DNA from: an uncultured Prevotella sp.
GTDB taxonomy: Bacteria; Bacteroidota; Bacteroidia; Bacteroidales; Bacteroidaceae
DNA: 64,000 nucleotides
Assembly (NCBI GenBank): GCA_900314995.1
Contig: OMXK01000005.1
Location: 44,010 to 108,009 of the forward strand
Direction: 5' to 3'
The position numbers and the translations under genes are program-made. The notes below the pieces were generated by a model, which saw only the letters and a program-made list of their open reading frames with translations, did no database searches and was not told the DNA's origin. Shown one piece after another: positions 8,856-24,505 of this stretch. Every line of letters begins with the position of its first letter. Position 1 is the first letter of the stretch.

Positions 8856-8950
8856 TCCTGTCTCCAGTCGCTAAAGGGTAGTTAGTCGTAATGTAACTGG
8901 CAGTTTCCTACCGAGAAACTCATAGCTATCTGGGAGGCTGGAAGAGGTCG

Positions 8951-9112: not shown

Positions 9113-9193
9113 TTAATTAATAAAAAAAGTTAATTATTGCCGAATTGAGTCCCTAAAAGCGGCATTAAGTGTCAATTGCCTTTTGACCCATCG

Positions 9194-9201
9194 TACTTTT
9201 G
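9194..9201 (+). promoter_or_regulatory. -7 box upstream of the DUF3987-like gene
   Basis: TACTTTTG matches TAnnTTTG and lies 33 bases before the ATG at 9234. The -33 side is weak (TTG at 9176-9178). It argues against using the TTG codon at 9183 as the translation start. Confidence 0.5.
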
Positions 9202-9233
9202 CAACTGTCGCACCTAAGTTGTTTCCATCCAAG

Positions 9234-10985
9234 ATGGGAGTATGTTTGGCTAATTCAATCAGTGGCCAGCCTCGCAAGGCGTCGCTCGCTGCTGTCCGTG
9301 AGCTGCAGACGGAAAATCATGTTGACGAGATTCTCTTCGACGTGAAGCAGAACAACAAAAGACCACCAGTAGTCGGCAGCCTGCCCAATGTCACGATGGG
9401 TACTACGACCTATCCTTCGATTTATAAGGGCATCGAGTATGACCTGATAGTGAAGCGATTGTTGCTGAAAATGGGCTATGGTGATCGTCCTATAGATGGT
9501 GAGCGTAACAATGCCATCTTCGCCTTGTCGCGCTACTTGCGCTATATCTGTGATTTTAATGTGGAGTGGCTCTTCCAGGTGATACCCCATTGGAAACTGC
9601 CTGACCATGAGGTGCTCTCAACACTGAAGAGTGGGGTTAACACCGTGCGGAAAGAAAGTATCCCGCCAACCCTTGGTGACCTGCTCAAGGGACTGGAGGC
9701 AGAGATGCAGGAACAGGGATTGGCAGAGAACGCTGAGGATGAGGACGACGGCCTTATCCCACGTGTGCCAGGACTGCTGCCCGGTATTCTGCAGCAGGTG
9801 GCCGACCATGCGCCTGCAGAGTTCAAGGAAGCCTCGCTGCTGTCGGCCCTGCCCATGCTGGGAACCGTGGCTACCGGTCTGCGCGCCAAGTATCGTGACG
9901 GTAAGGTTCAGTCGCCTTCTTTCATCGTAGATATCTGGTCGGATCAGGCCACAGGTAAGTCGTTTGTCGACCAGCTGATGGAATTGCTGATGGATCCCGT
10001 TATCAAGCAGGACGAGGAAGAGTGGCGGAAGGAGACGGAGTACTCGTTGGCAAAGAAAGACGGTCAGGAGGTGGAGAACCCTCGTGCGGCCATCCGTATC
10101 ATTGAAGCTAATATCGGTGTGAGTGCTTTCCTCGAACGGGCCATCTATGCCAAAGGCAAGCATCTTTTCACTTATGCGCCAGAGATCGAGACGGTGCAGA
10201 AGAACAATAAGGGTGGTGCGTGGACACAGAAGAATGACCTCATTCGTCTGGCCTACGACAACAAGCCCTGGGGACAGCACCGTATCTCGAAGGAATCGTT
10301 CTCGGGCAAGGTAGTTCTCTACTATAATATGCTGATGTGTGGTACGCCCCACAAGTGTCGTGCTTTCTTTTCCGATGCAGAGAGTGGTACTGTCAGCCGC
10401 ACTATCTTTGCAGAGCTGCCCGACATGATGGGTGCCAGGATGCCTGTATTTAAGACATGGACGAAGGAGGAGCAGGACGAGGTAAAACGTCAGTGTATGT
10501 GCCTGACGGACGAGGAAGGGGAGGTGGAATTGCCGTTGTTGAACAAGGCTATCGAAGAATGGGATGAATCGAAGCGCACGGAATATCTGAAGACATTGCG
10601 TCCAGCCCTCGATGTGTTCCGCCGTCGTTCGGCTCTCAATGGCTTCCGGGCAGGAATGGTGGCCTATGCGTTGGCTGGTTATCAGGAGACAGCTGAGGTC
10701 ATCAACTTCGCCCTATGGGTAGCTGAGCGTTGTCTCTATTATCAGGTGAAACTTTTCGGCAACCAAATTGACGCACTCCACAATGAGGTTCCTGAAATGA
10801 ACGGGATATTCCACAATGTCGATCTGTTGAAACTTCTCAGCAAAGAGTTCACGAAGGAGGAACTGGTGAACCTTCGTCTGACCTATGGTCAGTCACCAGT
10901 AGTCAAGTCGGTCATCCATCGCCTGAAGAAGGAAGGCCTGATCATCAAAATCGGTCCCAACCTCTGGCGGAAGGTAGACCTTTGA
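9234..10985 (+). CDS. DUF3987-type primase/helicase-like ATPase
   Basis: A 583-residue protein of the kind found in Bacteroidetes mobile or plastic regions. An N-terminal region (residues 1-130) is followed by an acidic hinge (EDEDDGLIPR) and an ATPase-like core with a P-loop-like stretch IWSDQATGKSFVDQL, FTYAPEIETV in the Walker B position and MLMCGTPHKCRAFF. The last 60 residues look like a winged-helix unit (SPVVKSVIHRLKKEGLIIKI). I infer a DNA-processing role; no substrate can be read. The frame is open further upstream to a TTG at 9183, but that lies before the probable promoter, so ATG 9234 is preferred. The gene is alone: a palindromic repeat pair precedes it and no integrase or VirE partner is near. 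It may be a domesticated remnant of an element. Confidence 0.7.
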   Translation: MGVCLANSISGQPRKASLAAVRELQTENHVDEILFDVKQNNKRPPVVGSLPNVTMGTTTYPSIYKGIEYDLIVKRLLLKMGYGDRPIDGERNNAIFALSRYLRYICDFNVEWLFQVIPHWKLPDHEVLSTLKSGVNTVRKESIPPTLGDLLKGLEAEMQEQGLAENAEDEDDGLIPRVPGLLPGILQQVADHAPAEFKEASLLSALPMLGTVATGLRAKYRDGKVQSPSFIVDIWSDQATGKSFVDQLMELLMDPVIKQDEEEWRKETEYSLAKKDGQEVENPRAAIRIIEANIGVSAFLERAIYAKGKHLFTYAPEIETVQKNNKGGAWTQKNDLIRLAYDNKPWGQHRISKESFSGKVVLYYNMLMCGTPHKCRAFFSDAESGTVSRTIFAELPDMMGARMPVFKTWTKEEQDEVKRQCMCLTDEEGEVELPLLNKAIEEWDESKRTEYLKTLRPALDVFRRRSALNGFRAGMVAYALAGYQETAEVINFALWVAERCLYYQVKLFGNQIDALHNEVPEMNGIFHNVDLLKLLSKEFTKEELVNLRLTYGQSPVVKSVIHRLKKEGLIIKIGPNLWRKVDL

Positions 10986-11038: not shown

Positions 11039-11070
11039 TTTGCATCTTGTTTAAAAAAGTAGTATCTTTG
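11039..11070 (+). promoter_or_regulatory. Promoter of the partner-switch/spike cassette
   Basis: A textbook Bacteroidetes promoter: TTTG at 11039-11042, a 20-base spacer, then TATCTTTG at 11063-11070, 41 bases before the ATG at 11112. It is the only clear promoter I found for the nine genes between 11.1 and 24.4 kb, all on the same strand with gaps of 18-68 bases. Confidence 0.8.
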
Positions 11071-11111
11071 CAGCGATAATAGAACTACAATATTATTCAC
11101 CTTTAAAAACA

Positions 11112-12071
11112 ATGATACAAAATACCAGGCTTCTGATGGTGCTTACTGCTCTCTTTGCCTTTTGCGGCAGCAAAGTGCAAGCACAGGACGAGACGATCGT
11201 GTTCACGCCCCAGTGGACGGCGCAGGCGCAGTTTGCCGGCTATTACGTGGCCGAGGCGAAGGGCTTCTACCGCGAGGCAGGGGTGAAAGTAAAGATTGAG
11301 CACCCGTCGGCAACGCAGCCCGCCATGAGCCGTCTCCGTAAGAACGAGTGTCAGGCCACAACGCTGCAACTCTGTCAGGCAATGGAAATCATCGACGACG
11401 GCATCCCCCTGGTGAACATCCTTCAGACATCGATGAACAATGCGATGGTGATCGTTTCTGCCCGCGGAGTAGACCCGCTGACGCAAAAGGGAGCCAAGGT
11501 GGGCGTCTGGAGCGTGGGTTTCGGACATCTGGCCATTTGCATGAGCATCAAGGATCATCTGAACTACGAGTGGATACGTTTTGCCCAGAACATCAACCTT
11601 TTTCTGGCTGGAGCCCTCGATGCCACTCTGGCCATGAGCTACAATGAATATTATCAGCTGGTTCAGGCAGGCATCAAGATGACTGACAAGAACGTGTACC
11701 GTTTTCGCGATCACGGCTACAATGTGCAGGAGGACGGCGTGTATATGACCCGCGAATACTACCAGAAGCACCGCGAGCAGGCCAGGAAGTTTGCCGATGC
11801 CAGCCGCAGAGGGTGGGAGTGGGCTGCCGAGCATCCCGAGGAGACGCTCGACATCGTGATGCAGTATGTCGAGAAGGCGCATATTGCCACCAACCGCGTG
11901 ATGCAGCGGCTGATGCTGAAGGACATCCTGCAGCTACAGGTGGACCGTGAATCGAAGAAGCGCGAGTTCCGCCTTCGCCCCGACATGGTGAGGCTGGCCA
12001 GCCAGTTGATGGTGGAGCACCAGATGCTGAGCCGCGAGGTGGCGTATGAGGAACTTGTTGATGAAAAGTGA
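11112..12071 (+). CDS. Periplasmic NMT1/THI5-like substrate-binding protein
   Basis: A 319-residue exported protein. It has a signal peptide (MIQNTRLLMVLTALFAFCGS, cleavage near VQA-QD) and an NMT1/THI5-like fold of the kind used by ABC importers for sulfonates, thiamine precursors or nitrate: FTPQWTAQAQFAGYYVAEAK, GFYREAGV and KVGVWSVGF are characteristic. No ABC permease or ATPase gene is adjacent. The next gene, 31 bases on, is a membrane phosphatase with an extracytoplasmic sensor domain, so I infer that this protein feeds ligand information to that sensor rather than to a transporter. It opens the cassette directly behind the promoter. The ligand cannot be read from sequence. Confidence 0.8.
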   Translation: MIQNTRLLMVLTALFAFCGSKVQAQDETIVFTPQWTAQAQFAGYYVAEAKGFYREAGVKVKIEHPSATQPAMSRLRKNECQATTLQLCQAMEIIDDGIPLVNILQTSMNNAMVIVSARGVDPLTQKGAKVGVWSVGFGHLAICMSIKDHLNYEWIRFAQNINLFLAGALDATLAMSYNEYYQLVQAGIKMTDKNVYRFRDHGYNVQEDGVYMTREYYQKHREQARKFADASRRGWEWAAEHPEETLDIVMQYVEKAHIATNRVMQRLMLKDILQLQVDRESKKREFRLRPDMVRLASQLMVEHQMLSREVAYEELVDEK

Positions 12072-12102
12072 AGAATGCCCTAAAATACTGACATAGAAGA
12101 AT

Positions 12103-14073
12103 ATGAAAGAAATTCTGCAATATATCCGCCGCAAACTTTACGTCAGGGTCAGCCTGTGGGTGGTGCTGTTTGCTGCCATCATCTTCATCGTTGCCCTGGG
12201 CTTTCTGTTCTTCCAGTCGCGTGAGGCTGTACGTCAGGAGGCAGTCAACAGTGCCACGCAGATACTCGACAAGACCTCGCTGCGCGTGGAGAGCATCCTG
12301 AACCGTGTGGAAGTTGCCTCTGCCATGACCAAGTGGCTCGTTGAGCGCCATCCCGACAAGGCCGACTCAATGTTCGTCTACAGCCGCGGCATGCTGCTGA
12401 ACAATCCTGACTTCTACAACTGCTCCATCGCCTTCGAACCCTACTACTTCAAGGACAAGGGCCGTTACTTCTCGGCCTACACCAAGCATGTCGGCGACAG
12501 CCTTCGTACGATTCAGGGCGGTAGCGACAACTACCAGTATTTCTTCATGGACTGGTATCTCTTGCCTTCGCTGCTCGACAAGCCATGCTGGACGGAGCCT
12601 TACTTCGATCTCGATGTGGCTACGAACACGAGTGAGATGGTGACCAGCTACTGCCAGGCCATCAAGGATAACGAAGGTCGGATGATAGGTGCCATCAATA
12701 CCAGTCTTTCCATCAGTTGGCTCTCGCAGACTATATCGGCCATTAAGCCTTATCCCAACTCCTATAGTGTCATGATCGGGCGTGGCGGTACCTATTTCGT
12801 ACATCCTGATTCCACCAAGATTACCCGCCAGACGATCTTTACCAAGTCTTTGGAACAGCCTGACACAGCTCTTGTCGCCTTGGGGTATGCCATGCAGCGT
12901 GGCGAGGAGGGCATGAAGCGCATGAACATCAATGGGCAGGATAGTTATGTGTTCTACAAACCACTTGGTCAGACAGGCTGCTCGATGGCCATCGTCTGTC
13001 CGGAAAGTGACATCTTCAGCGGCTTCGACCGTCTCCGTCGTACCGTTATGGCCATCGTCATTGTGGGGCTGCTGCTGATGCTCTACATGTTCATCCGTAT
13101 TATCACCAGCGAGCTACAGCCCCTGCGTCGGCTGGCAAAGGGAGCTGAGACCATTGCCTCGGGACATTTTGACGTCCAATTACCTGACTTGCAACGCATC
13201 GACGAGATCGGACAACTGAGCCATTCTTTTTCCGACATGCAGCAGTCGCTTGTGAAATATATCGAAGAACTGAAGGAAACCACCGCCAAGAAAGCCTCTA
13301 TCGAGAGTGACCTCCGTATTGCCAGCAGCATACAGATGGGCATGCTACCCGAGAAGTTCCCCACAAAGGCTGACCGCGATGATGTGCAAATCTATGCCTC
13401 GCTGACCCCTGCCAAGGATGTAGGTGGCGACCTCTTTGACTTCTATTTCCGAGATGAGAAACTCTTCTTCTGCATCGGAGACGTATCGGGAAAGGGTGTC
13501 CCTGCCTCACTTTTCATGGCGGTCACCAGAGCCGTGTTCCGCACTGTTTCTGCCCACGAGTCGATGCCCGACCGTATTATTATCGCTATGAACAAGACAA
13601 TGGCCGGCATGAACAAGACCCACATGTTCGTGACCCTCTTTGTCGGCGTGCTCGACCTGCCTACTGGACGCCTGCACTATAGCAATGCCGGGCACGACGC
13701 GCCGCTGCTTGTCGGAGATGGTGTCGGAGAGTTGCCCTGCGATGCGAATATTCCCGTAGGTTTTATGCCCAAGTGGAAGTACACGCTGCAGGAAGCCCAG
13801 ATATTCACGGGAACTACTATCTTCCTCTTCACCGACGGACTAACCGAGGCGATGGATGTAGACAATGCCCAGTTCCAGATGGAGCGCATCAACGATGTGG
13901 CATTAAAGGCGCTCTCCCAGCAACAGCAGGAACCGAAGCAACTCATCGACCAGATGACCGATGCCGTTCATCAATTTGTCGGAGATGCCGAGCAGAGTGA
14001 CGATCTGACGATGATGGCCATCCAATACATCAAACAGCAGAGTGCTGTGAGTATGCGGAAGAGTATAAAATAG
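12103..14073 (+). CDS. Membrane sensor SpoIIE-type serine phosphatase (RsbU-like)
   Basis: A 656-residue receptor phosphatase predicted to dephosphorylate STAS-domain antagonists in a partner-switching circuit. Order: TM1 (about 15-36), a large periplasmic dCache-like sensor (about 40-310), TM2 (about 314-335), a HAMP linker (LQPLRRLAKGAETIASGHFD), a coiled coil, then the PP2C/SpoIIE domain from about residue 405. The metal-binding acidic residues are present: Asp443 in VGGDLFDF, Asp460 in GDVSGKG, and Asp633-Asp634 in SDDLTMMA. It lies between the binding protein and a STAS gene (14115), matching the RsbU-RsbV order. A second phosphatase with a different sensor and an added kinase domain is encoded at 22249. 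Family call is firm; its partner being the adjacent STAS protein is inferred. Confidence 0.92.
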   Translation: MKEILQYIRRKLYVRVSLWVVLFAAIIFIVALGFLFFQSREAVRQEAVNSATQILDKTSLRVESILNRVEVASAMTKWLVERHPDKADSMFVYSRGMLLNNPDFYNCSIAFEPYYFKDKGRYFSAYTKHVGDSLRTIQGGSDNYQYFFMDWYLLPSLLDKPCWTEPYFDLDVATNTSEMVTSYCQAIKDNEGRMIGAINTSLSISWLSQTISAIKPYPNSYSVMIGRGGTYFVHPDSTKITRQTIFTKSLEQPDTALVALGYAMQRGEEGMKRMNINGQDSYVFYKPLGQTGCSMAIVCPESDIFSGFDRLRRTVMAIVIVGLLLMLYMFIRIITSELQPLRRLAKGAETIASGHFDVQLPDLQRIDEIGQLSHSFSDMQQSLVKYIEELKETTAKKASIESDLRIASSIQMGMLPEKFPTKADRDDVQIYASLTPAKDVGGDLFDFYFRDEKLFFCIGDVSGKGVPASLFMAVTRAVFRTVSAHESMPDRIIIAMNKTMAGMNKTHMFVTLFVGVLDLPTGRLHYSNAGHDAPLLVGDGVGELPCDANIPVGFMPKWKYTLQEAQIFTGTTIFLFTDGLTEAMDVDNAQFQMERINDVALKALSQQQQEPKQLIDQMTDAVHQFVGDAEQSDDLTMMAIQYIKQQSAVSMRKSIK

Positions 14074-14114
14074 TGAATAATAAATAATAAGGTATTAATT
14101 AAATCATCATCAAA

Positions 14115-14417
14115 ATGAAAACGACAATTCAAGAAAAAGACGGTTGCATGGTTGCCATTTTGGAGGGTAGCCTCAACACCGCAGAAGCTCCTGAGACTGA
14201 AAAGGCTATGGCACCTCTGTTCGACGTAGAGGGAAAGGATATTATTCTCGACTGTACGAATCTCGAGTATATCTCATCTGCAGGTTTGCGTATCTTCCTT
14301 GCTGTACTGCAGAGTGCTGAAGAAAAAGGTGAGCATGTGTACATTTCGGGCATCAACGACAATGTACGCTCCATCTTTGCTATTACCGGATTCAGCAATA
14401 TTTTCGAATTCAAGTAA
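14115..14417 (+). CDS. STAS-domain anti-sigma-factor antagonist (RsbV/SpoIIAA-like)
   Basis: A 100-residue single STAS domain. The phosphorylation helix start is intact: YISSAGLR with Ser54 and Ser55, preceded by the usual ILDCTNLEY strand. In known systems the unphosphorylated antagonist binds an RsbW-type kinase and frees that kinase's other partner. It follows the sensor phosphatase by 41 bases and precedes the VgrG-like gene by 68 bases. A second STAS gene lies at 21395, beside the kinase gene, so the cassette has two antagonists for at least two kinase domains. Which antagonist pairs with which kinase cannot be told by eye. Confidence 0.92.
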   Translation: MKTTIQEKDGCMVAILEGSLNTAEAPETEKAMAPLFDVEGKDIILDCTNLEYISSAGLRIFLAVLQSAEEKGEHVYISGINDNVRSIFAITGFSNIFEFK

Positions 14418-14485
14418 ACGGTGGCTGAATTGATGCGGCTAACGACAGTCCTTATCAGTAACGAACATTCAATAACAGATGTGAG

Positions 14486-17400
14486 ATGGCAGCAGAATCG
14501 AGTAACAATACAAACTTAATTTATAGACTGACATTTGGCGGGTTCATTGGCTCCAAAGGTAAGCAGCCGGATGAATTACAACTGAACCAGGGAGTCCGTA
14601 AAGTGATTTCCGACGACAATAGAAACTATTACATGTTGCTTTGCGGTGTCAAGGTGAACCGTAAGATCTACCAGCCTACCGAGATTGAGGCAGAACTGGA
14701 TTTCACTCACGAAACCACCGACGCGCAAAACAAGAAAAAGAGCACCGCGCCCAAGTTTAGCGATATCAAAGGTTACCTGCTGCAACGAGAGGTGACGGTC
14801 GACATCGTTGATAATGATAAAAAGGACAAAGACGGTAAGCCGGTGACCTACAACGTGGCCAAGAACTGTTATGTGTTTGAAATGACCCCGCAGCTGCAAC
14901 GTGATGTGGACGGCACGAAGATGTATGTGAAACTGAGCATCTTCAGCATGGATAAGCTGATGACCCTCAACAAGTACAGCAAGGCATACGTGGCCCGCAA
15001 GCTCGGCTCTGAAATCCTGCAGCCAGAGAGCCTGAATTTCGGAAACGTCTCCGATGGTGTTCCCTTGATAGACTCCTATGTCGGCAACCAACAGCATCTG
15101 ACGTACACTGTTTCCGGCGAAAAGTTCGAGTTCATACAGCCCTATCTGGTACAGTATAATGAGTCGTTCTACGACTTCCTGGTGCGCACCTCCAACCGTT
15201 GTGGAGAGTTCCTCTTCTTTGAGGACGGCAAACTGGTGTTAGGTTTGCCAAAAAGCGAATCAAAAAGCGACTCGCTTGTAGAAATCGACAAATACGAGAC
15301 TGTGACCGTTATGGAGAGGTCGGTCGATCCGCTGATAATCAGTGGCTATGCCCGCGACAGCGTGAAAGACGGCGACGGCACGCTGAAGGGAACTGCCGGC
15401 GGCAGCGACAGTAATCCCGAACTGAACATCTCGCCCATAGCCAAGGAGCAAACCGGATTCCCCAAGGATGTCTTCCCCACCTACACTGCGAGCAATGCCG
15501 AACTCGCCCAGGACGACTACATCTTCCCGCTCTACAGGGGCAAGTTCACCAATCGAAAGCGTGAACTCTGCTATGACGGCAATACCGGCCAGAATGCCTT
15601 AGGCAGATCGATGCTGCTCGGCAAGACCCTACTGGGCAATGAATTAGACCTTGGAGGAGGAGGCTTTCCCATCTCCTTGGCCATAGATGCGTTTCTCAAC
15701 GAAGCCGTGCCAACCGTTTTAGGCGATATGAGGGTGAAGTCGTGGAACGGCACGCAGGCCGCGCGGTATATGGATATCCTGAAAGGGAAAAACGATCAAT
15801 GCGACGATCAGAAGACCGTGCAGTTTGGCACGCTGAAGAGCGAAGGATGGACTACCCTGAAATATTATAAGGATATCCTTCTGCACGAAGAGGCACAGCA
15901 GCGGAAGATCGTGTGCATCAATATGGGCACCAATTTTGTCAATGTGAAGTTAGGCCAGAAGATCAAGGTCGATGGGCTCGACGATGTCTATGTCATCATT
16001 CAGATACAGCAGAACTCCGAGGTGGCCTGGAAACGCAACTACGACAGATACGGCATGGAGGCAGACGATAAAGACACAGGCGTGCGCTCGCTGAAAATCT
16101 ATGCCATCCCAGGGTATGGTGATGACAATATTCAGTTCATTCCCCCTGTGCATCCGGTACCAGTCATCCGGAAGGTGGGACCTCAGACAGCCTTCGTGAC
16201 CGACAATGAAGACCCGAAGTTCCAGGGGCGTGTACGCATCGCCTTCCCTTGGCAGTCGCTGGGCGGCCCGGAAAGGAGTCAACTCAATGAAGTGGCTATC
16301 AAACTTCACGAGATGGTGAGCAGCATCGAGGACTTGAGAAAGAAGGAGAAAATGCTTCTGGAAGAGTCAACGAAAGCTAGCCAATACTTAGAGGAACTCA
16401 AGAAATATGTAAATGCCACGAAAGATGAGCGTGAAGAACTGCTCAAGCAGAGGAAACAAAAAGTAGAAGATATAAAAAAGGATCTCGACCAGTTCAAAGC
16501 CTCACTGAACCAAAAGGAAAAAGAGGAAAAGGAGGCCCAGAAAGAAAAGACAGAGAAAGAGATAGCCGAATTTGAGGCAGCGGCTAAGGAGCACGACGAG
16601 AGGAAGGGCAAGGCCGGCTATCAGAATCCTGAGAAGGACAACACCATAATCCGCAAGTATAAGGATATCTATGACAAGAAGAACGGGGAGTACCTGAAGG
16701 CCCATGTCGACTTGCAAACAGCCGGAAATAAGGAGAAGGCTATAGAAGCCGAAGGCCAGAAACTGAAAGAAAAGATAGAAGAAAGCGTGTATGCCATGTC
16801 GTCGCCGTGGGTGCGCGTCGTCACGCCGATGGCCTCGCCCGGCGGCGGCACATTCTTCCGTCCCAGAGTAGGCGACGAAGTGATGGTGAACTTTGAGAAC
16901 GACAACGTGGAGCGTCCCTATGTCATAGGCAGCGTGTTCTCCAAGAACACCCTCACCCCCGACGAGAAGATGTATCGCCAGCGTGGCCCTGAGTTGCAAG
17001 GCAAGGATGTGAGCATGATGATGGTGTCGCCCAACGGCCATCACATCACCTTTACCGACCCCGACGGCGGCACTAACTTCCTGACCAATCTGGTCTCGCC
17101 GGGACTGGGCCTGTGGGGGACTATCGTGGGAGGGTGGTTCAACAGTCTCCTCCCTGGTGCCAAGGACCTGGCAGGCGGTATCCATATCGGCGACCGTTAC
17201 GGGCTATACGAGATAGACATGAAGAGCCACAAGCGCTCCATCGAAATCAATTCGCCTTTCGGCACGGTGGCCATCAATGCCTTCTCGGGCATCACCATCA
17301 GTGCCCCCAACGGCAATGTCACCATCAAGGGAAAGAACATCAATCTGGAGGCTAGTAACAAGGTGAACATCCTCTCGGGGCTGAATATTGATGACGACCC

Positions 17401-18640
17401 GGGCTTTGGCGATCCCGAAGGAAAGGCCTACCAGGCTGGTAAGGCACTTACCGACCTCTTCGCCGAGATTATCCCTGCAGAACTCACCAAGTATATGTTC
17501 AGTTCGGTGACCGACCTGAGCTACATTCGCCACGTGGTGGAGGTGTTTGTGCGCCCCGTTGACGGCACGCTCAAGCTCAAGTCGAAACGCTATCTGATGC
17601 TGGAGGCCGGCAAGGGTAATGCCACCATCCGTCATGACCGCTATGCCACGGCAGTGGCAGGAAAGAAGGAGTCGCAGGAGGATTTCTTCAAGGCCATGCT
17701 CGCCGGGGTGAAGTTCATCTGTGAGAAGGTCGACCTCTTCTACGATACCTATGAGGCATTATGGGCCGACGGCTACAAGAAGAGGATTGCCTACGAGGAC
17801 ACAGCCTACGCTCTACAGATAAAGGATGTCAAGAATCCAAATCTAAGGAAGCTTGCCTATGACACCACCGATGAATGGACTGATGACATCATCACAGAAT
17901 CCACTTACAAGGACATCCTCGCCTCTACTATGTTCCATATGATCAAGGACCCTGCAGATGCCTTTGCCGAAGCAGCCTTCAAAATCTACCGGCATGTGGA
18001 GAGCTTCGAAGAAATGCTGAAAGATTATTCGGCTCTTCCCATCGGCAATTTCCCATGGATAGGCGATTGCTTCATGACAGCGATTGGTAATGTGAACAGC
18101 AAGTGCAAAATGACAGAAGAGTGGGCGCAGGCATTCGCCAAAGGCAAGGAAGACGAGCTTTTCAACGATTCCAATCCCGATCCGAAAACCGACAAGTTTG
18201 CGATGGCTAACAAGAAACTGTTCAAACGCAAACTTCTGCTCTGTTTCATCCATACTGTGGGCAAAGATCCCGGAAACGAGAAGGGCAAGTACTTCAACTG
18301 CGGACTCCGCATCGACGAGATACTGAAAGAGGAGTGGATCAGACAGGAATTCTACTGGAATCGCACAGTGTTCTTCCTCGACCGTGACAAGAGGATGAAT
18401 TACCACAACTTCTGGCGTAAGCTGTATGACAATACGTGGGGCATGGTTGTAAGCAATGCCAAGAAAATCGCGGCTCCCTTCGACCGTGACATCTGGAATG
18501 ACACGGCCGATGGGCAGATACTCTTCTCTGAGAAGGAGAACAAGACCCTCAACTTCCAGGGCGAGGGTCTCCACGAGGAGAGCAGTTCTAACATCGGCAC
18601 GCTCGCACATCTGAAGAAAGAACTGATGGCTATCAAGTAA
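14486..18640 (+). CDS. Giant VgrG-like spike protein with coiled coil inserted in the OB fold
   Basis: A 1384-residue protein resembling the T6SS/phage spike (VgrG, gp27-gp5). Residues 1-560 are a gp27-like base. An OB-fold begins at about 578 (GRVRIAFPW). Residues 608-770 are a highly charged Glu/Lys coiled coil. The OB fold then resumes with SPWVRVVTPM and FRPRVGDEVMVNFENDNVER, ending in VIGSVF near 815. A needle-like beta segment follows (about 912-962, SIEINSPFGTVAINAFSG), then a 400-residue C-terminal domain I cannot assign. Typical VgrG proteins are 600-700 residues. No signal peptide is visible. Its neighbours are a second solenoid protein and partner-switching regulators, not T6SS structural genes. 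It could be an orphan spike with a C-terminal effector domain, or a spike-derived scaffold. Confidence 0.8.
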   Translation: MAAESSNNTNLIYRLTFGGFIGSKGKQPDELQLNQGVRKVISDDNRNYYMLLCGVKVNRKIYQPTEIEAELDFTHETTDAQNKKKSTAPKFSDIKGYLLQREVTVDIVDNDKKDKDGKPVTYNVAKNCYVFEMTPQLQRDVDGTKMYVKLSIFSMDKLMTLNKYSKAYVARKLGSEILQPESLNFGNVSDGVPLIDSYVGNQQHLTYTVSGEKFEFIQPYLVQYNESFYDFLVRTSNRCGEFLFFEDGKLVLGLPKSESKSDSLVEIDKYETVTVMERSVDPLIISGYARDSVKDGDGTLKGTAGGSDSNPELNISPIAKEQTGFPKDVFPTYTASNAELAQDDYIFPLYRGKFTNRKRELCYDGNTGQNALGRSMLLGKTLLGNELDLGGGGFPISLAIDAFLNEAVPTVLGDMRVKSWNGTQAARYMDILKGKNDQCDDQKTVQFGTLKSEGWTTLKYYKDILLHEEAQQRKIVCINMGTNFVNVKLGQKIKVDGLDDVYVIIQIQQNSEVAWKRNYDRYGMEADDKDTGVRSLKIYAIPGYGDDNIQFIPPVHPVPVIRKVGPQTAFVTDNEDPKFQGRVRIAFPWQSLGGPERSQLNEVAIKLHEMVSSIEDLRKKEKMLLEESTKASQYLEELKKYVNATKDEREELLKQRKQKVEDIKKDLDQFKASLNQKEKEEKEAQKEKTEKEIAEFEAAAKEHDERKGKAGYQNPEKDNTIIRKYKDIYDKKNGEYLKAHVDLQTAGNKEKAIEAEGQKLKEKIEESVYAMSSPWVRVVTPMASPGGGTFFRPRVGDEVMVNFENDNVERPYVIGSVFSKNTLTPDEKMYRQRGPELQGKDVSMMMVSPNGHHITFTDPDGGTNFLTNLVSPGLGLWGTIVGGWFNSLLPGAKDLAGGIHIGDRYGLYEIDMKSHKRSIEINSPFGTVAINAFSGITISAPNGNVTIKGKNINLEASNKVNILSGLNIDDDPGFGDPEGKAYQAGKALTDLFAEIIPAELTKYMFSSVTDLSYIRHVVEVFVRPVDGTLKLKSKRYLMLEAGKGNATIRHDRYATAVAGKKESQEDFFKAMLAGVKFICEKVDLFYDTYEALWADGYKKRIAYEDTAYALQIKDVKNPNLRKLAYDTTDEWTDDIITESTYKDILASTMFHMIKDPADAFAEAAFKIYRHVESFEEMLKDYSALPIGNFPWIGDCFMTAIGNVNSKCKMTEEWAQAFAKGKEDELFNDSNPDPKTDKFAMANKKLFKRKLLLCFIHTVGKDPGNEKGKYFNCGLRIDEILKEEWIRQEFYWNRTVFFLDRDKRMNYHNFWRKLYDNTWGMVVSNAKKIAAPFDRDIWNDTADGQILFSEKENKTLNFQGEGLHEESSSNIGTLAHLKKELMAIK

Positions 18641-18658
18641 AAGGTAAAAAGGTAAAAA

Positions 18659-20647
18659 ATGGATTATATATTCAAGGAATGGGAGAAGAAGCTCTCCACC
18701 TTTGAGAGCAGCGTAGAGAAAGACCTGGCGGAGATCAGGAAGTGCAAGGCAGAGATGCAGCAGATAAAGCTCGACGTAGTGGCAGAGCTGCAGAAAGGTC
18801 GCTATGTGCGCGACACCCAGCGGCTGGTGCTGTCGGCACCGGAAATCATCATTGGCAATGTCGACCGCAACGGCACCCTCTTTGCGGGAGGCTCCAAGGT
18901 CATCGTCCGAGGCACCCAGGTAGGTGTCGAGGGAGCCGGAGAGGGCGGCCGCCTGGAGCTCCGGGCACCCAGCATCCGCGAGATTGCCGAAGACCCGGGC
19001 ACCGACGGGCGGGAGCATGTCGTAGGATCGCTGTCGGAGGTGGTCAGCCAGGCGCGCAATATCATCATCCAGAGCGACGATGCCGAAGGGGCCTTTTCTG
19101 CCCCCACGGCGCCCACGGGCGGCAGCGGGGTGCGCATCCATGCCGACAAGACCATCGACGTGCATGCTGCTATGACGGCGGAAAGCCGAGAAGGACGCCT
19201 GACAGACTTGATCAGTGAGACTGAGAAACAGAAAGACTATCTCAAGGAGCAAGCCAGTGCCCATAAGAAGTCGTTCACGGATCTGAAGAAAGAGATGGAG
19301 GAACTGATAGAGAAAAGGGATACGCTGGCAAAAGACTACGAAAACGTCCGTACTAACTATCGGGAAATCAGAAAAGCATCTGAAGAGATTGAGGCACTTT
19401 CCATGTCAATCACTGAGGAGACCTACGCCTATGCAGAGATTCTGTCTATGCTGGCAGAGACCAACCGGAGACTGAAGTGCTTCAAGGACGAGAAGTCGAA
19501 AATCAAGAAGGGCGACGACTTCAAGAAAAAACCGACCGGAGCGAGTGTCAATATCACGGGTGAGAACATCAGCTTGACATCTGCCGACGGCGAGAACAAT
19601 CTGCGCGACAACGAAGAGTCGGGAATCACCATCGCAGCCAACACGGTGAGCGTCGCTTCCCTGGACAAGGAAGGAGCACTGAATAAGGAAGGCAAGGTGA
19701 GCGTGGTGGCCATGAACATTGAAATGGCCACGGCAGGCGGTGCCGACCAGAAATTCGACGAAGAAGGAATACTTGAGAAGGCTACCTATACAGCTGAGGG
19801 CGAATTCAAGCTGACGTCGAAGAACATCACCATTGAGGGTGTCGACTATGAGGTGGCCGACAAGAAATTGAAGGAGAAGCAGCTCACCGCCGACAGCAAG
19901 ATCAAACTGCGCGCCAAGACCATCGAGGTATCCACAGAAGGCTCCGCCAACGTGGAGGTGGATGACAAAGGCAAGATGACCAAGGCCAACTACACCTCGG
20001 AGGGCGACATCATCGTACACTCGAAGACCCTCACCGTGGAGAGTACCGACACCGACTTGGAGAATGGCGAGACCAAGGAGAAGGCCCTCACCGCAGACAG
20101 CAAGGTGGCCATCCGTGCCGAGAAGATGGACCTCTCGGCCACTGATACCGAGGGCAAGGCTACGGGCAGCGTGAGCATCAATGCCAAGGCCGTCAGCGTG
20201 AAGTCGATGGACGTGGAGAAAGAGAAACGCACCGACGACAAGTTGGCCGAAGGCAGTACAATGACCATCGTCGCGGAGAAGATGTATGTGGGTGCGAAGT
20301 CGAAGGATGTCAAGTCGAAGAAGGTGCAGGTGGTGTCCGAGGAGATCGGTGCCTTTGCCGACAAGACGCTGGAGATCCAGCAGGACGAGGGCAAGGCGCT
20401 GGTGCAGCTCTCGGGAGGCAATGCCTCGCTGGGCGGCAGCAAGACGCAAGTCTACGGCGAGACCACGATCAATGCCAAGACCGAGGTGAAGGACGAACTG
20501 AAGGCGCCGAAGGCTACCATCGACAATGTCGAGGTGAAGAGTGCCTTCAAGTCGCCGAACATCCAGGACGGCATGGGCGTCAGCGCCGGCGGTGGCGGTG
20601 GCAGTCTGAGTGCAAAACTGAAGACGGAGGATGCCCCGAAGGATTAA
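18659..20647 (+). CDS. Large beta-solenoid/coiled-coil protein, spike companion
   Basis: A 662-residue protein without signal peptide that I do not recognise as a named family. Residues 1-40 are a short coiled coil; 55-165 are short beta repeats (LSAPEIIIGN, SKVIVRGTQVGVEG, RNIIIQSDD); 180-275 form a long charged coiled coil; 290-625 contain at least nine imperfect repeats of the type xVxIxAKxVxVxSxD (for example EFKLTSKNITIEGVD, KIKLRAKTIEVS, SVSINAKAVSVKSMD). The alternation of hydrophobic and polar residues matches the triple-stranded needle of phage spikes and VgrG tips. A GGGGG linker lies near the C-terminus. It starts 18 bases after the VgrG-like gene. The most economical reading is a second, possibly trimeric, needle or scaffold working with it; this is inference. 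Confidence 0.65.
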   Translation: MDYIFKEWEKKLSTFESSVEKDLAEIRKCKAEMQQIKLDVVAELQKGRYVRDTQRLVLSAPEIIIGNVDRNGTLFAGGSKVIVRGTQVGVEGAGEGGRLELRAPSIREIAEDPGTDGREHVVGSLSEVVSQARNIIIQSDDAEGAFSAPTAPTGGSGVRIHADKTIDVHAAMTAESREGRLTDLISETEKQKDYLKEQASAHKKSFTDLKKEMEELIEKRDTLAKDYENVRTNYREIRKASEEIEALSMSITEETYAYAEILSMLAETNRRLKCFKDEKSKIKKGDDFKKKPTGASVNITGENISLTSADGENNLRDNEESGITIAANTVSVASLDKEGALNKEGKVSVVAMNIEMATAGGADQKFDEEGILEKATYTAEGEFKLTSKNITIEGVDYEVADKKLKEKQLTADSKIKLRAKTIEVSTEGSANVEVDDKGKMTKANYTSEGDIIVHSKTLTVESTDTDLENGETKEKALTADSKVAIRAEKMDLSATDTEGKATGSVSINAKAVSVKSMDVEKEKRTDDKLAEGSTMTIVAEKMYVGAKSKDVKSKKVQVVSEEIGAFADKTLEIQQDEGKALVQLSGGNASLGGSKTQVYGETTINAKTEVKDELKAPKATIDNVEVKSAFKSPNIQDGMGVSAGGGGGSLSAKLKTEDAPKD

Positions 20648-20678
20648 AATATCAAAAATAATAGAGGAGTGAAAAGTT

Positions 20679-21374
20679 ATGAATAATTATATTTCATTTG
20701 AGACAATCGATTTTGCGAAGAAACTAAAGGGCTATAACATGCTCTTCAACTATCGGATGTCAAATCTTTGCGTCAAGGCAGAACCCACTGCCCTGATGCC
20801 CGTAACCGTCTTTGTGGCTGGCACGGAGTACAATCTGGAAGAGGTGGCTAATATCCTGAAGCCCGACGATTTTTCATTCGATGTCTATCCCAAGAACCAA
20901 AACAACCTGCAGGATATCATCAGCGGCATCTTCGACGTCCATCCGGAGTTCAAGATGGAACTCAAGACCGATAAGGCAGAGAATGAGGGAGGGGCTGACA
21001 CCCAGCATGTCTTCTATACCATGCCGCCAGTAGATAAGGACCGCCGCAAACTGCTGAATGAGACCACCAAGACCTTCCATAAGGAGTGCAAGGTTAACCT
21101 GGATATCACTTATGCAGAACTACAGGCTCGACTCGTGGAACCCTATACCCAGATGTCACCTCAGGATGTCGACGAGGCAAGGAAAGGCTTCAAGAAAGTC
21201 TATGATAAAGCGAGGGAAGAGTGTGACAAGATGCTGCAACTGAAGCTCAACGAGATCGAGGAGGGCTATCAGCGCTATCTTACTGAGTATAATGACCGGT
21301 ATGCTGAGCCAGAAACGGATGACCATGAAATGGAAGTATCGGAAGATCCTGAGATAGATGCACTATTCAAATAA
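20679..21374 (+). CDS. Degenerate ribosome-recycling-factor-like protein
   Basis: A 231-residue cytoplasmic protein whose whole length can be aligned by eye with ribosome recycling factor (RRF, about 185 residues). NLEEVANI sits where RRF has the domain II loop (PLNxxANI). Near residues 115-127, MPPVDKDRRKLL sits where RRF has PPLTEERRK-L. A two-helix coiled region follows (KECKVNLDITYAEL, then SPQDVDEARKGF to LKLNEIEE) with an acidic C-terminal tail of about 35 residues. Conserved RRF residues are lost: the arginine-rich VRNIRRDA helix reads VNLDITYA, and the TGRA turn reads VKAE. It is therefore unlikely to recycle ribosomes. It lies between the solenoid gene and the second STAS gene. Homology to RRF is my own reading and needs a profile search; otherwise it is a hypothetical protein. 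Confidence 0.55.
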   Translation: MNNYISFETIDFAKKLKGYNMLFNYRMSNLCVKAEPTALMPVTVFVAGTEYNLEEVANILKPDDFSFDVYPKNQNNLQDIISGIFDVHPEFKMELKTDKAENEGGADTQHVFYTMPPVDKDRRKLLNETTKTFHKECKVNLDITYAELQARLVEPYTQMSPQDVDEARKGFKKVYDKAREECDKMLQLKLNEIEEGYQRYLTEYNDRYAEPETDDHEMEVSEDPEIDALFK

Positions 21375-21394
21375 CTTAAGCAATACGTAACAAT

Positions 21395-21805
21395 ATGGAT
21401 AATGATTTTATTGTCACTCTGAACGGCACGTCCTTGGTTGTCGAGCTTGGCAGAAGTCTCAATACGACTAACGCACCGGCACTGGCGGAAGAACTCACCA
21501 AGTATAAGGGTCAGGCTATTGAGAAAGTGGTTTTCGATGCCTCTGAGCTGATGACCCTTTCCAGCAGTGGTCTCAGGGTAGTTTACTTTGCAAAGCAAAG
21601 GCTGGGTAACAAGCCGGAAATCGTCTTCGTGAACTGCGCTAAGGAAATCTACAACACACTGAAGATTATCGGCCTTGCCCCCTCCATCAAGTTTGTGAAA
21701 GTAGAGGGAAAGAAAGTCGTACGCAAACAAGAGGAGCTTGATAGTTTTGCCGCGAACAACGATGTGGTGTGTTACTCAATGAAGTTGGGACAAAGCGACG
21801 AATGA
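21395..21805 (+). CDS. STAS-domain anti-sigma-factor antagonist, second copy
   Basis: A 136-residue STAS protein with the motif LMTLSSSGLRVVYFAKQ; Ser56-Ser58 sit at the usual phosphorylation position. It is about 35 residues longer than the STAS protein encoded at 14115: the extra C-terminal tail (VEGKKVVRKQEELDSFAANN onward) is polar and could bind a partner. It lies 25 bases before an RsbW-type kinase gene, the normal antagonist-kinase pairing. I infer that it is the direct substrate of that kinase and of one or both phosphatases in the cassette. Confidence 0.9.
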   Translation: MDNDFIVTLNGTSLVVELGRSLNTTNAPALAEELTKYKGQAIEKVVFDASELMTLSSSGLRVVYFAKQRLGNKPEIVFVNCAKEIYNTLKIIGLAPSIKFVKVEGKKVVRKQEELDSFAANNDVVCYSMKLGQSDE

Positions 21806-21829
21806 CAAGAGCGTTTTTGAGATGAGGCT

Positions 21830-22225
21830 ATGACTCGACTGCATTTCCAGCCTATTCAGGGCAAGTCGCTTGACATCATCGATGCCATCCTCCAGACAGA
21901 GGAAGTGGCATCGGTAGGAAATGCGTGGGAAAAAATCTGCGTGGTGGTTGAAGAGCTTGTACTGAATATTGTCGACTATTCCAACTCCAACTATCTTGAT
22001 GTAGAAATCCTTCGCAATGAGAGGAGCATCACCCTGCGTTTCCACGATGCCGGTGTGCCGTTCAATCCACTTAAAAAAGACCCGCCTGATATCACTTTGC
22101 CGATGGAAGAACGAGAAATAGGCGGACTAGGAATCTTCTTGGTCACCAAGTATATGGATACAGTGGCTTACGAACATACAGGAGGAGAGAATATACTGAC
22201 CGTCGTGAAAAGCATAAAGGGGTAA
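21830..22225 (+). CDS. RsbW/SpoIIAB-like serine kinase (HATPase_c)
   Basis: A 131-residue GHKL ATPase-fold kinase of the anti-sigma type. The N box is VVEELVLNIVDYS, the G1 box DAGVPFNP, and the G2 box GGLGIFLVTKYMD. Such kinases phosphorylate STAS antagonists and bind a second target, classically a sigma factor. No sigma factor is encoded in the cassette. It shares its box sequences closely with the C-terminal domain of the next gene's product (DTGVSFDP, GGLGVFLVREIMD), suggesting duplication within the cassette. Gaps on both sides are about 24 bases. Confidence 0.92.
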   Translation: MTRLHFQPIQGKSLDIIDAILQTEEVASVGNAWEKICVVVEELVLNIVDYSNSNYLDVEILRNERSITLRFHDAGVPFNPLKKDPPDITLPMEEREIGGLGIFLVTKYMDTVAYEHTGGENILTVVKSIKG

Positions 22226-22248
22226 AGTGGTTTAAAGATAAAGAATGT

Positions 22249-24396
22249 ATGGGACGATTTCTGGAAGTTATAAAAAAGAATCTCAGCCTGAGCATTATCA
22301 TTGCTGCAGCTATACTGCACGTATTGATAGTGGTTTTCATGTCTTATACCAGCCATAATATCATTCAGGAAACGATGGAACAGCTGGTAGAAAGGGAAAT
22401 GGCAGGCATTTATCTCGGTATACGCAACCATTTGACAAAGATAGAGATTACGGTCGATAATATGTCGTGGGTGGTGAGAGATGACCTAGGAGATCCCGAT
22501 GCAATGTATGTGAAAACTCGCCGTTTGGTGGAAAACAATCCTGCTATCCTTGGCAGCAGCATCACCTTCATTCCTGACTATTACCCACAGAAAGGACGCT
22601 GGTTTGAGCCGTATGCAGTACGACGGGCCGATGGCACAGTCGAGAACCTTCAATTAGGTTCTGCCGAACATGACTATACGAAAAGCGAATTTTATGTAGT
22701 GCCGATAGAAACTGGTCGTGGTCACTGGTGCGAGCCCTATCGGGACAACGACGGGGCTAAGGCGATGGTAACCACTTATGCCGTTCCTGTCCGTGATTCA
22801 AATAATAAGATCGTAGCTGTAGTCGATGCCGATCTGCCTATTAGCCTGCTTGAAGGAATGGTGGAAGAAGGTAAGGTCTACAAGAGCACTCAGCGCTTTC
22901 TGATATCTGGCAAAAACCATCTGCTAGCAGGTCAGGATGGGCCTGTGTTTCAAATGGTACTCAAGCAGATTTCAGATTATAGTGACAAACAAGGGTATTT
23001 CACTCTGGAAGACGAGGAAGGTCGGGATTTGCACGTATTCTACCACCCTGTAGGAGGTATGACAGATTGGGTGTTAATCAGTGTCCTTGAAGATGGTGAG
23101 GTGTTTGGTAAACTGCGTAATGTGCAGCTTTTGTTGCTATTTGTCGTTTGTGTAGGCTTGTTGCTTGTAGGCTTTGTCATAAGCCGTGCCTCTCGGAATT
23201 TGGAACGGCTTCGTCAGACTAACGCCGAAAAGGAACGCATCGCTTCCGAGTTGCATGTGGCCAGTCAGATACAGCAGAAAATGCTGCCTAATGGTAGCAT
23301 GATCTATGATAACGTTGAAATCTTCGGTAAGCTTGTGCCTGCCCGTGAGGTGGGAGGTGATCTATTCGACTATATTATCCGCGACGAGAAACTATTCTTC
23401 TGTATTGGCGATGTCTGCGGTAAGGGCACCCCCGCCGCTATGCTGATGGCCAGTATCCATTCGCTGCTGTATGCATTTACGCTTCACGAGAACAATCCTG
23501 CCCGTGTCGTTCATGCACTTAACGAAGTGGCCTCTGACGGTAATGAGGATTGCCTGTTCTTTACCTTCTTTATCGGGGTGCTCGACCTGCCTACAGGACG
23601 TCTGCGCTATTGTAATGCAGGCCATAATGCACCATTTATATTAGGTGATGAACTCATGATGCTTGACTGTGATCCCAACGCGCCTATAGGTCCCATGGAC
23701 GATGCGGAGTTCAGCTTGCAGACCATTACGCTAAGTCCAGGTAGCACAATCTTCCTCTATACCGACGGACTGACTGAGGCTAATAACGCAGAAGGGCAGG
23801 AACTCGGTCTTGAGCGCACGAAAGAAGTGTTGAATGATTGCGTTAAGCGGCGTTTGAAGCCCGAGGATATTGTAAGTACAGTCACCGAAGCGGTGCATCG
23901 CTTTGCGATGGGTGCTGAACAAAGCGATGACCTGACAATGCTCGCCGTGCGCTACACACCCCAGAAGTTTGAAAGTACCATGACAGAGACAATCACGCTG
24001 GATAACGATTTATGCGAAATAACACGCTTATCTGATTTCCAGGTCGCGGTATATCCCAAGATGAATGTCGGGAAATCGTTGGCCAGTAAGCTTCGGCTAG
24101 CCGTTGAAGAGGCGGTGGTGAATGTGATAAAATATGCCTATCCGTCTGGCAGGCATGGAAGTATCCATGTGGCATTCATGACAGATGGTCGTCAGCTCAA
24201 AATTACGATCACTGATACAGGTGTCTCTTTTGACCCGACAACCATTGCGAAAGTAGATACTTCGCTGTCAGCTAAGGAGCGGAAGATAGGCGGGCTGGGT
24301 GTATTCCTGGTGCGTGAAATCATGGATTCCATCAATTATGAACGCGTTGACGACCGAAATATCCTGACCTTGACTAAAAAGATTGAAAAAGAATAG
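22249..24396 (+). CDS. Membrane sensor with SpoIIE phosphatase fused to an RsbW-like kinase
   Basis: A 715-residue protein combining opposite activities. It has TM1 (about 13-31), a periplasmic Cache-like sensor (about 35-285), TM2 (about 287-309), a short coiled linker without an evident HAMP, a SpoIIE/PP2C phosphatase domain (about 325-565; VGGDLFDY, GDVCGKGTPA, SDDLTMLA), and a C-terminal GHKL kinase domain (about 580-715; N box VEEAVVNVIKYAYP, G1 DTGVSFDP, G2 GGLGVFLVREIMD). The metal ligands and nucleotide boxes look intact in both, so both could be active on the same STAS partner. It ends the cassette, and a 12-bp hairpin lies 42 bases after the stop. The sensor differs from that of the phosphatase encoded at 12103. 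Confidence 0.9.
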   Translation: MGRFLEVIKKNLSLSIIIAAAILHVLIVVFMSYTSHNIIQETMEQLVEREMAGIYLGIRNHLTKIEITVDNMSWVVRDDLGDPDAMYVKTRRLVENNPAILGSSITFIPDYYPQKGRWFEPYAVRRADGTVENLQLGSAEHDYTKSEFYVVPIETGRGHWCEPYRDNDGAKAMVTTYAVPVRDSNNKIVAVVDADLPISLLEGMVEEGKVYKSTQRFLISGKNHLLAGQDGPVFQMVLKQISDYSDKQGYFTLEDEEGRDLHVFYHPVGGMTDWVLISVLEDGEVFGKLRNVQLLLLFVVCVGLLLVGFVISRASRNLERLRQTNAEKERIASELHVASQIQQKMLPNGSMIYDNVEIFGKLVPAREVGGDLFDYIIRDEKLFFCIGDVCGKGTPAAMLMASIHSLLYAFTLHENNPARVVHALNEVASDGNEDCLFFTFFIGVLDLPTGRLRYCNAGHNAPFILGDELMMLDCDPNAPIGPMDDAEFSLQTITLSPGSTIFLYTDGLTEANNAEGQELGLERTKEVLNDCVKRRLKPEDIVSTVTEAVHRFAMGAEQSDDLTMLAVRYTPQKFESTMTETITLDNDLCEITRLSDFQVAVYPKMNVGKSLASKLRLAVEEAVVNVIKYAYPSGRHGSIHVAFMTDGRQLKITITDTGVSFDPTTIAKVDTSLSAKERKIGGLGVFLVREIMDSINYERVDDRNILTLTKKIEKE

Positions 24397-24437
24397 GAAA
24401 AAAGCAATTATCGAGAAGCGTGAGTTTATAGGTAACA

Positions 24438-24470
24438 AACTACCAGTTTGCAGGGATGAAACTGGTAGTT
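24438..24470. terminator. Perfect 12-bp hairpin between convergent genes
   Basis: AACTACCAGTTT (24438-24449) and AAACTGGTAGTT (24459-24470) are exact inverted copies with a 9-base loop. The site lies between the convergent ends of the cassette and nadB. There is no long T run on either side, so it is either a weak bidirectional terminator or an RNA 3'-end stabiliser. Confidence 0.6.
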
Positions 24471-24505
24471 CGTCGTAATGAAACTTCCCTTCAGATGGGA
24501 TGCGA

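Follow-up and report, generated by a model that had tools for sequence, protein, structure and literature searches.

A spike operon of Prevotella with partner-switch genes: candidate auxiliary spike of a type VI secretion system

The window analysed here, a stretch of 64,000 nucleotides from an uncultured Prevotella sp. (contig OMXK01000005.1, positions 44,010 to 108,009), holds a nine-gene operon in which spike genes stand among those of a partner-switching circuit. In order, these genes encode a periplasmic substrate-binding protein (SBP), a sensor phosphatase (SpoIIE1), a STAS protein (STAS1), a VgrG-type spike protein, a second spike-set protein named SOL, a relative of the ribosome recycling factor (RRF-like), a second STAS protein (STAS2), an RsbW-type kinase and a phosphatase fused to a second kinase domain (SpoIIE2). 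To which machine could such a spike belong, and why should it be encoded together with a sensor-driven switch? The best explanation, to which we give as a whole about an even chance, is an auxiliary spike for a type VI secretion system (T6SS) of subtype iii (T6SSiii) encoded elsewhere in the genome, with a partner switch of its own and gated after translation. A cell that has one T6SS but several VgrG spikes must indeed select what it loads. If true, a spike subunit would be a new class of target for partner switching, a relative of RRF would count among T6SS parts, and a T6SS subtype with E1/E2-like genes would be described from Prevotella-type bacteria. Neither partner switching of a T6SS spike nor an RRF-like T6SS protein appears among the matches listed from the open-licence PMC literature, as far as titles and the beginnings of abstracts go.

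The spike set and its machine

The source genome (3.48 Mb, 86 contigs) has two further VgrG genes of the window kind, on contigs C40 and C31, both of which also hold T6SS machine genes. The end of C31 carries TssH, TssB, an AraC-type regulator and TssC. TssC (C31:306-1583) matches PF17541 with 337 bits for a cut-off of 25; TssH, of the ClpV type, is a protein of 852 amino acids (aa) with AAA_2 and ClpB_D2-small domains, and the TssB candidate near TssC is a 154-aa gene matching PF05591 under its cut-off (E 0.022). C40 starts with TssD genes (PF17642, E 2.1e-20 and 8.8e-14), followed by VgrG, SOL, RRF-like, a PAAR-like DUF4280 protein, a PEGA protein, ThiF and a 262-aa protein, and further on by a TssK-like protein (match under the family cut-off), gp25/TssE (E 2.5e-10), a 574-aa protein in the TssF position and an E2-like protein. 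The 574-aa protein and the 262-aa protein, which is in the TssG position, match no Pfam or NCBIfam family, and their copies in another genome (G898) gave chance-level NCBIfam matches only. No TssN/O/P/Q/R match was found in Pfam or NCBIfam for the candidate envelope genes, no genome search with such models having been made. The ends of C31 and C40 probably adjoin; in G898, the whole T6SS cluster, spike triad included, lies on one contig, and similar clusters occur in other genera of the family (L131-L135). The initial annotation had described the circuit as one without an injection machine. No machine gene is indeed present in the window operon, but this does not hold for the genome: the search for T6SS subtype iii genes that it had suggested turned up sheath, ClpV-type, tube and baseplate genes on C31 and C40, on the strength of which a spike without a machine was rejected.

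How closely the spike set goes with this machine can be read from TssC, which was found in 24 of the 150 genomes of the genus, 12 of the 14 with SOL and 12 of the 136 without it (Fisher 1.2e-9, uncorrected for relatedness). The TssC proteins of SOL-positive genomes score 333-354 bits, whereas the best ones of 10 of the 12 SOL-negative genomes score 418-768 bits, the other two (G137, G042) being partial; a second copy in one SOL-negative genome (G049) scores 273 bits. Since these ranges differ, SOL is tied to one TssC class. Both SOL-positive genomes with no TssC match are drafts (G086, 94% complete in 120 contigs; G095, 85% in 270 contigs). Searches beyond the genus gave SOL in 7 of 399 family genomes, across five genera, and in one of 393 genomes of the order, which is the source genome itself. 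The VgrG-SOL-RRF-like triad is the own spike set of this T6SSiii subtype, and the window operon is very probably an orphan spike cassette of it.

The T6SSiii of Bacteroidota is described, in the passages considered here, with TssB-I, TssK and TssNQOPR, its loci being scattered over the genome across the phylum (PMC10781749). The TssC, TssD, VgrG, gp25/TssE and ClpV-like genes of the source genome and their scattered loci are alike (PMC10781749). Unlike what these passages describe, the spike set includes SOL and RRF-like, VgrG is about 1170-1475 aa long, the cluster has ThiF (E1-like) and E2-like genes, and STAS genes lie on many orphan islands. Orphan hcp/vgrG/PAAR islands are known (PMC13098142, in part), and PMC4714493, in the parts considered, treats the T6SS architectures of gut Bacteroidales, with Hcp and VgrG genes now and then lying apart from T6SS regions; the words STAS and ThiF do not occur there. 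Here too, spike genes lie away from the main cluster; in contrast to the orphan islands of those passages, sensor phosphatases, STAS and kinase genes are linked to them, and no effector/immunity pair was recognised.

Within the core cluster, an E1-like ThiF (L008 10132-11265), an E2-like protein (L008 15803-16390; UQ_con E 1.7e-4, under cut-off) and an 809-aa protein with a weak RING match and an FHA domain (L130 1843-4272, minus strand) could, judging from their domains, form a ubiquitin-like conjugation set. No paper linking ThiF or ubiquitin-like proteins with type VI secretion in Bacteroid- taxa was found in the open-licence PMC literature. Two similar genes, nucleotidyltransferase-like by eye (L009 8454-9818 and L054 7025-7999, both minus), sit between the end of the T6SS cluster and the C31 spike island.

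A profile from 11 VgrG homologues matches solved T6SS VgrG proteins (PDB 9jg8, E 2.2e-17), and the window VgrG scores under the NCBIfam VgrG cut-offs. A coiled-coil insert of about 180 aa lies in its OB-fold loop (aa 591-772, about 16256-16801). Such an insert is shared by 16 of the 20 STAS-linked VgrGs and by 3 of the 17 Hcp-linked ones; as it follows ancestry and is missing in four STAS-linked VgrGs, it was not taken as proof of STAS linkage. A toxic C-terminal domain was likewise rejected, as the ends of all 11 aligned VgrG proteins align and no toxin domain was found on the window VgrG in Pfam, NCBIfam or PHROGs. For SOL, no family came above cut-off in these three collections, several of the weak matches falling on the coiled coil, and the PDB gave no informative match; the beta-solenoid call of the initial annotation was not confirmed. 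A phage or plasmid origin of the spike set was dismissed, SOL having no match in plasmids, phages or viral contigs. At one locus (L016, 523-1461), a phage-type integrase lies directly upstream of the spike operon, and the spike islands may in view of it be mobile.

The third member of the triad belongs to a translation factor family, PF01765, which was matched by all 13 RRF-like homologues. There are also matches to chloroplast and bacterial RRF chains of the PDB over both domains (E 6e-10), and the AlphaFold2 model has three long helices and a beta domain (mean pLDDT 85), with a low-confidence tail from residue 209. The protein is nevertheless not a true RRF. Arg158 and Arg161 of true RRF, which we take to be ribosome-contact residues, are respectively replaced by D/E in 43 of 45 RRF-like proteins and lost in 44 of 45, rows below 190 aa (2 of 47) having been dropped from these counts as from the motif counts, the RRF tree and the matrices of 4 to 6 columns below. 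Moreover, the source genome has one separate true frr (221.6 bits) and three RRF-like genes, one per triad, the C31 copy scoring under the family cut-off. From its sequence and gene context, RRF-like is probably a T6SS part, a spike adaptor. Its cysteines C31 and C137 are invariant in 13 of 13 proteins of one alignment, C137 not being kept in all distant copies.

STAS genes and a shared tail motif

The association of spikes with switch genes was surveyed in 49 annotated loci with 50 SOL genes, from a named-genome scan and searches of the genus and the family; the scan took the RRF-like protein as query and found 11 loci, each in a record named Prevotella or Prevotellaceae. Loci without SOL were left out before counting, as were L055, L018 and L084, duplicates of L011, L057 and L017. 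Runs were defined by a common strand and gaps below 400 bp, and a place was called orphan when its run is separate from the core genes; L009, L057, L060 and L062 were counted as orphan though within about 25 kb of core genes, and so was L134, although its strand also bears ThiF, TssK-like, gp25 and other core genes a short distance away. A STAS gene lies in the same close-packed run in 23 of the 39 orphan places and in none of the 11 core places (23/38 and 0/12 with L134 moved by hand to the core). The TssD141/Hcp160 pair is present in 10 core places. The orphan places divide into 23 with STAS (one also with the pair), 8 with the pair only and 8 with neither; at one of the last (L063), a STAS gene is next door on the opposite strand. 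STAS and the pair are almost mutually exclusive, with that one place having both (Fisher 4.8e-6 over 50 places, 0.0015 over orphans, ancestry uncorrected). Mapped onto a SOL tree of 46 rows, the STAS label must change six times, and well-supported branches make five of these changes unavoidable; STAS genes were therefore gained or lost repeatedly. The source genome has only seven STAS matches in its 3.48 Mb, two of them within the window operon.

A distinct SpoIIE phosphatase of about 506 aa occurs on the opposite strand at four loci (L009 6849-8369, plus; L060 6675; L062 5216; L083 6128), near Hcp-type spikes or near a TssH gene, so that STAS-less spikes may have a phosphatase neighbour too.

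A short C-terminal motif, S/G/A-M-K/R-L/M, is found on many of the RRF-like proteins, where it often stands between D-V-T and acidic residues. At loci with STAS2, the RRF-like protein has another tail or none, and STAS2 is extended by a tail that ends in ...NDVVCYSMKLGQ-acidic. In the window, the RRF-like tail is without S-M-K/R-L/M and the STAS2 tail ...NNDVVCYSMKLGQSDE (about 21752-21802) bears it; in all 13 STAS2 loci, RRF-like lacks the motif and STAS2 has it or a close form. Counted strictly within the last 15 residues, it is present in 10 of 13 STAS2 proteins and in 16 of 32 RRF-like proteins from loci without STAS2, against 0 of 13 from loci with it, 0 of 14 STAS1 proteins and 1 of 549 other open reading frames (ORFs). 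The loose form occurs in 25 of the 32 and again in none of the 13. Matrices of 4, 5 and 6 columns, built from STAS2 tails alone with the 99th percentile of other ORFs as threshold, place 18, 12 and 15 of the 32 RRF-like tails above it, and 0 of the 13 from STAS2 loci.

According to an RRF tree made without the tails, the state with STAS2 and a motifless RRF-like arose three times, and the nearest relatives of these three lineages (L057, L009, L063) keep the motif. The eight full-length tailed STAS2 matches of the genus search are all at spike loci, largely by construction, because six of them had gone into the search model and a seventh is sequence-identical to one of these six; seven of the nine next-best relatives outside spike operons are tail-less. 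The initial annotation had the circuit act on the spike proteins by protein-protein interaction. The presence of the motif on either RRF-like or STAS2 favours, as far as sequences can tell, such a direct protein-level link between switch and spike; the circuit is not exclusive to spikes.

A possible switch on spike loading

The motifs of the switch proteins are intact. The acceptor serine is kept in 27 of 27 aligned STAS proteins, two of them from the window, the N, G1 and G2 boxes of RsbW are intact in the window copy and in 8 relatives, and the metal-binding Asp positions of SpoIIE are conserved at 97-100% in the aligned set. Three places, in the window, L058 and L116, have an SBP gene directly upstream of one and the same type of SpoIIE phosphatase gene, with STAS coming next; the SBP is likely, from this gene order, to be the ligand input of SpoIIE1, which fits the earlier proposal of control by an external ligand. 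The SBP-SpoIIE1-STAS1 unit is not upstream of the window's close relatives L012-L016, and in L058 such a unit comes after another triad. Further SpoIIE-STAS or STAS-HATPase pairs occur elsewhere in the source genome. Being found without spikes as well as at other triads, these parts are portable modules gathered at spikes. The tie between circuit and spikes claimed at the outset thus stands as a recurrent companionship of STAS genes and orphan spikes, not as an exclusive one. Independent occurrence of spike and regulatory genes in relatives, which the initial annotation had named as evidence against its proposal, is found in part, since core triads have no STAS gene and modules exist without spikes. 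One Prevotella module, STAS-RsbW-(receiver+SpoIIE)-WD40-Y_Y_Y sensor kinase (L142-L147, RsbW not being seen in L144 and L147), is a generic partner switch; in L145, it is followed by a TonB-dependent receptor.

By analogy, the nearest functional precedent is BtrU/BtrV/BtrW of Bordetella, a SpoIIE phosphatase, a STAS protein and a kinase which act, in the passages considered, on type III secretion, partly after transcription (PMC7498569, PMC8256260). It differs by the type III system, by the BtrS sigma factor of its network and by the absence of spike genes or a docking tail from those passages. RsbU/RsbV/RsbW and SpoIIE/SpoIIAA/SpoIIAB of Bacillus belong to the same families as the window proteins, in which catalytic and phospho-acceptor motifs are kept; in contrast, the window operon has no sigma gene and its STAS2 has an extra tail. 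The best NCBIfam match of SpoIIE1 is the SiaA model (E 2.1e-25, far below its cut-off). SiaABCD of Pseudomonas is a switch with an output other than a sigma factor; compared with it, the window operon lacks a diguanylate cyclase and the output appears to be a spike.

In the mechanism that we propose, SBP with SpoIIE1, and SpoIIE2 through its own sensor domain, would read outside signals; both phosphatases would dephosphorylate STAS1 and STAS2, which RsbW and the HATPase domain of SpoIIE2 would rephosphorylate. RRF-like would act as a spike adaptor, its tail being what normally attaches the spike to the machine. At the window operon, STAS2 would have taken over the RRF-like peptide and would provide the docking tail in trans, and its phosphorylation state, bound to RsbW or free, would decide on loading or firing, free STAS2 completing the spike with the docking peptide; STAS1 would be a second input. 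The outcome would be a ligand-controlled magazine selector, putting one spike among several onto a shared T6SS machine. That the switch functionally controls this spike appears likely to us. That it acts after translation, STAS2 being a docking subunit controlled by phosphorylation, is put forward more tentatively from the tail comparison, at clearly less than an even chance. Many of the orphan spikes seem to come with a sensor-driven switch of their own and a candidate docking peptide.

Several observations weigh against this reading. Regarding gene neighbourhoods, one core run (in G898) holds SpoIIE genes; many runs hit the end of their stretch, among them those of all eight orphan places that lack STAS as well as Hcp; and ancestry is a confounder in both the STAS and the Hcp counts. 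STAS proteins are also widespread: of the 150 genomes of the genus, 88 match the STAS2 model at E 0.001. The modules also occur without spikes, as in the free-standing SBP-SpoIIE-STAS operon on C73 of the source genome and the STAS-RsbW-(receiver+SpoIIE)-WD40-sensor kinase module of other genomes, including two (G007, G082) that match neither SOL nor TssC. As for the tail motif, it is short, was spotted by eye and was defined after looking at the data, and its loose form turns up as well among other ORFs (30 of 549) and STAS1 proteins (4 of 14). With a 12-column matrix of STAS2 tails, a single one of the 32 RRF-like tails exceeds the 99th percentile, so that the likeness is confined to the short motif, a longer similarity of the two tails being rejected. 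Three origins are too few for significance in a sign test. Even the loose motif is missing from seven of the 32 RRF-like proteins that have no STAS2 in cis, which takes seven independent changes on the tree; some carry near-forms, and two (L052, L076) are from G136, which has tailed STAS2 elsewhere. Finally, the tailed STAS2 genes L140 and L141 stand in stretches without a spike, both in G136, which has several triads.

The chief rival, which we hold rather unlikely, is a transcriptional control in which the switch holds or frees the AraC-type helix-turn-helix (HTH) regulator HTH186, an extracytoplasmic function (ECF) sigma factor or a second RpoD-like one, turning on T6SS or spike genes; the operon would then simply house the regulator of its spike. 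Canonical partner switches target sigma factors, according to the passages considered of PMC8256260; HTH186 lies between TssB and TssC in the genome's own core cluster and adjoins STAS1 in L057 and L063, and the source genome has a second sigma factor resembling RpoD. The operon itself is without a sigma gene, as the initial annotation had stated, or an HTH gene, and a search with Sigma70_r3, outside which ECF factors fall, gave no cognate sigma factor in the operon and two genes on other contigs (C28, C34), where STAS, SpoIIE and HATPase_c_2 have no match. Their RpoD likeness was judged by eye from the N-terminus, with a fragment scan for C28. What transcriptional control leaves unexplained is the STAS2 tail and its absence from RRF-like. 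The same tail motif argues against chance neighbourhood, in which generic Prevotella signalling modules would lie beside orphan spike islands while controlling something else. The free-standing modules described above, present even in genomes with neither SOL nor TssC, are as this explanation would have them; the scarcity of STAS matches in the source genome, with two of the seven here, and their presence in over half of the orphan runs, with at least five label changes, make it improbable.

Slightly less probable still is that RRF-like would be a translation-targeting effector carried by the spike, STAS and kinase proteins protecting the producer or timing release. It has the family match and the predicted fold of RRF and is encoded with most spike sets seen, but two conserved Arg are lost, one with charge reversal, in nearly all copies, and its presence in core triads having no STAS is of a uniformity that suits a structural part better. 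Hardly credible, finally, is a self-contained spike device needing no T6SS. The window operon has no sheath, tube, baseplate or ClpV gene and TssC has no match in two SOL-positive genomes; these are however drafts, TssC is present in the other 12 of 14 with scores forming one class, and the source genome encodes the machine. An auxiliary spike with a switch of its own is thus the reading retained.

Concerning the regulators themselves, the AraC-type protein has an N-terminal coiled coil (L054 1698-2258, minus; L057 3215, plus; L063 4211, minus). Two sigma factors of one genome (L138 5298-6233, minus; L139 4212-5072, plus) have RpoD-like N-termini that are nearly identical by eye.

Features of the operon

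The ORF list and the promoter pattern agree with the initial annotation of nine same-strand genes, in the order given above, behind one promoter, and Pfam matches for SBP, SpoIIE, STAS, VgrG, RRF and HATPase_c_2 bear out its domain calls, SOL aside. The operon spans 11112-24396, with a single promoter and a single terminator hairpin, and its successive intergenic gaps are 31, 41, 68, 18, 31, 20, 24 and 23 bp. The promoter pattern has 9 matches in the window for 0.54 expected; one of them, at 15218, is inside the VgrG gene and was taken as chance. The hairpin lies directly 3' of the last gene, 4 of 200 shuffles folding as well or better.

Table 1. Positions of the operon features in the window and the matches on which their assignment is based.
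Feature	Coordinates	Strand	Match or remark
Promoter, Bacteroidetes-type TTTG-N20-TATCTTTG	11039..11070	+	Exact pattern match; first ATG 41 bp downstream
Periplasmic SBP, NMT1/THI5-like	11112..12071	+	PF09084, Pfam E 4.2e-26
SpoIIE1, Cache/PDC-HAMP-SpoIIE (PP2C-type) phosphatase	12103..14073	+	SpoIIE E 5.7e-46
STAS1, anti-anti-sigma type	14115..14417	+	STAS E 1.2e-16; conserved Ser55 at 14277-14279
VgrG-type spike protein, 1384 aa	14486..18640	+	OB domain Phage_base_V E 1.1e-17
SOL, second spike-set protein, central coiled coil	18659..20647	+	Adjoins VgrG; RRF-like gene usually next
RRF-like protein	20679..21374	+	PF01765, E 4.2e-11; C-terminal tail about 21300-21371
STAS2	21395..21805	+	STAS E 5.9e-11; invariant Ser57 at 21563-21565
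RsbW-type serine kinase	21830..22225	+	HATPase_c_2 E 2.1e-16
SpoIIE2, Cache/PDC-SpoIIE phosphatase fused to second HATPase_c_2 kinase domain	22249..24396	+	SpoIIE E 1.3e-48; HATPase_c_2 E 4.5e-24
Terminator-like hairpin (AACTACCAGTTT / AAACTGGTAGTT)	24437..24475	+	-17.7 kcal/mol, z -2.42

Elsewhere in the window, a short ORF of the minus strand (8871-9113), upstream of a DUF3987 gene (9183-10985), holds the internal repeat VAWLQCDH twice and is possibly a small repeat element.

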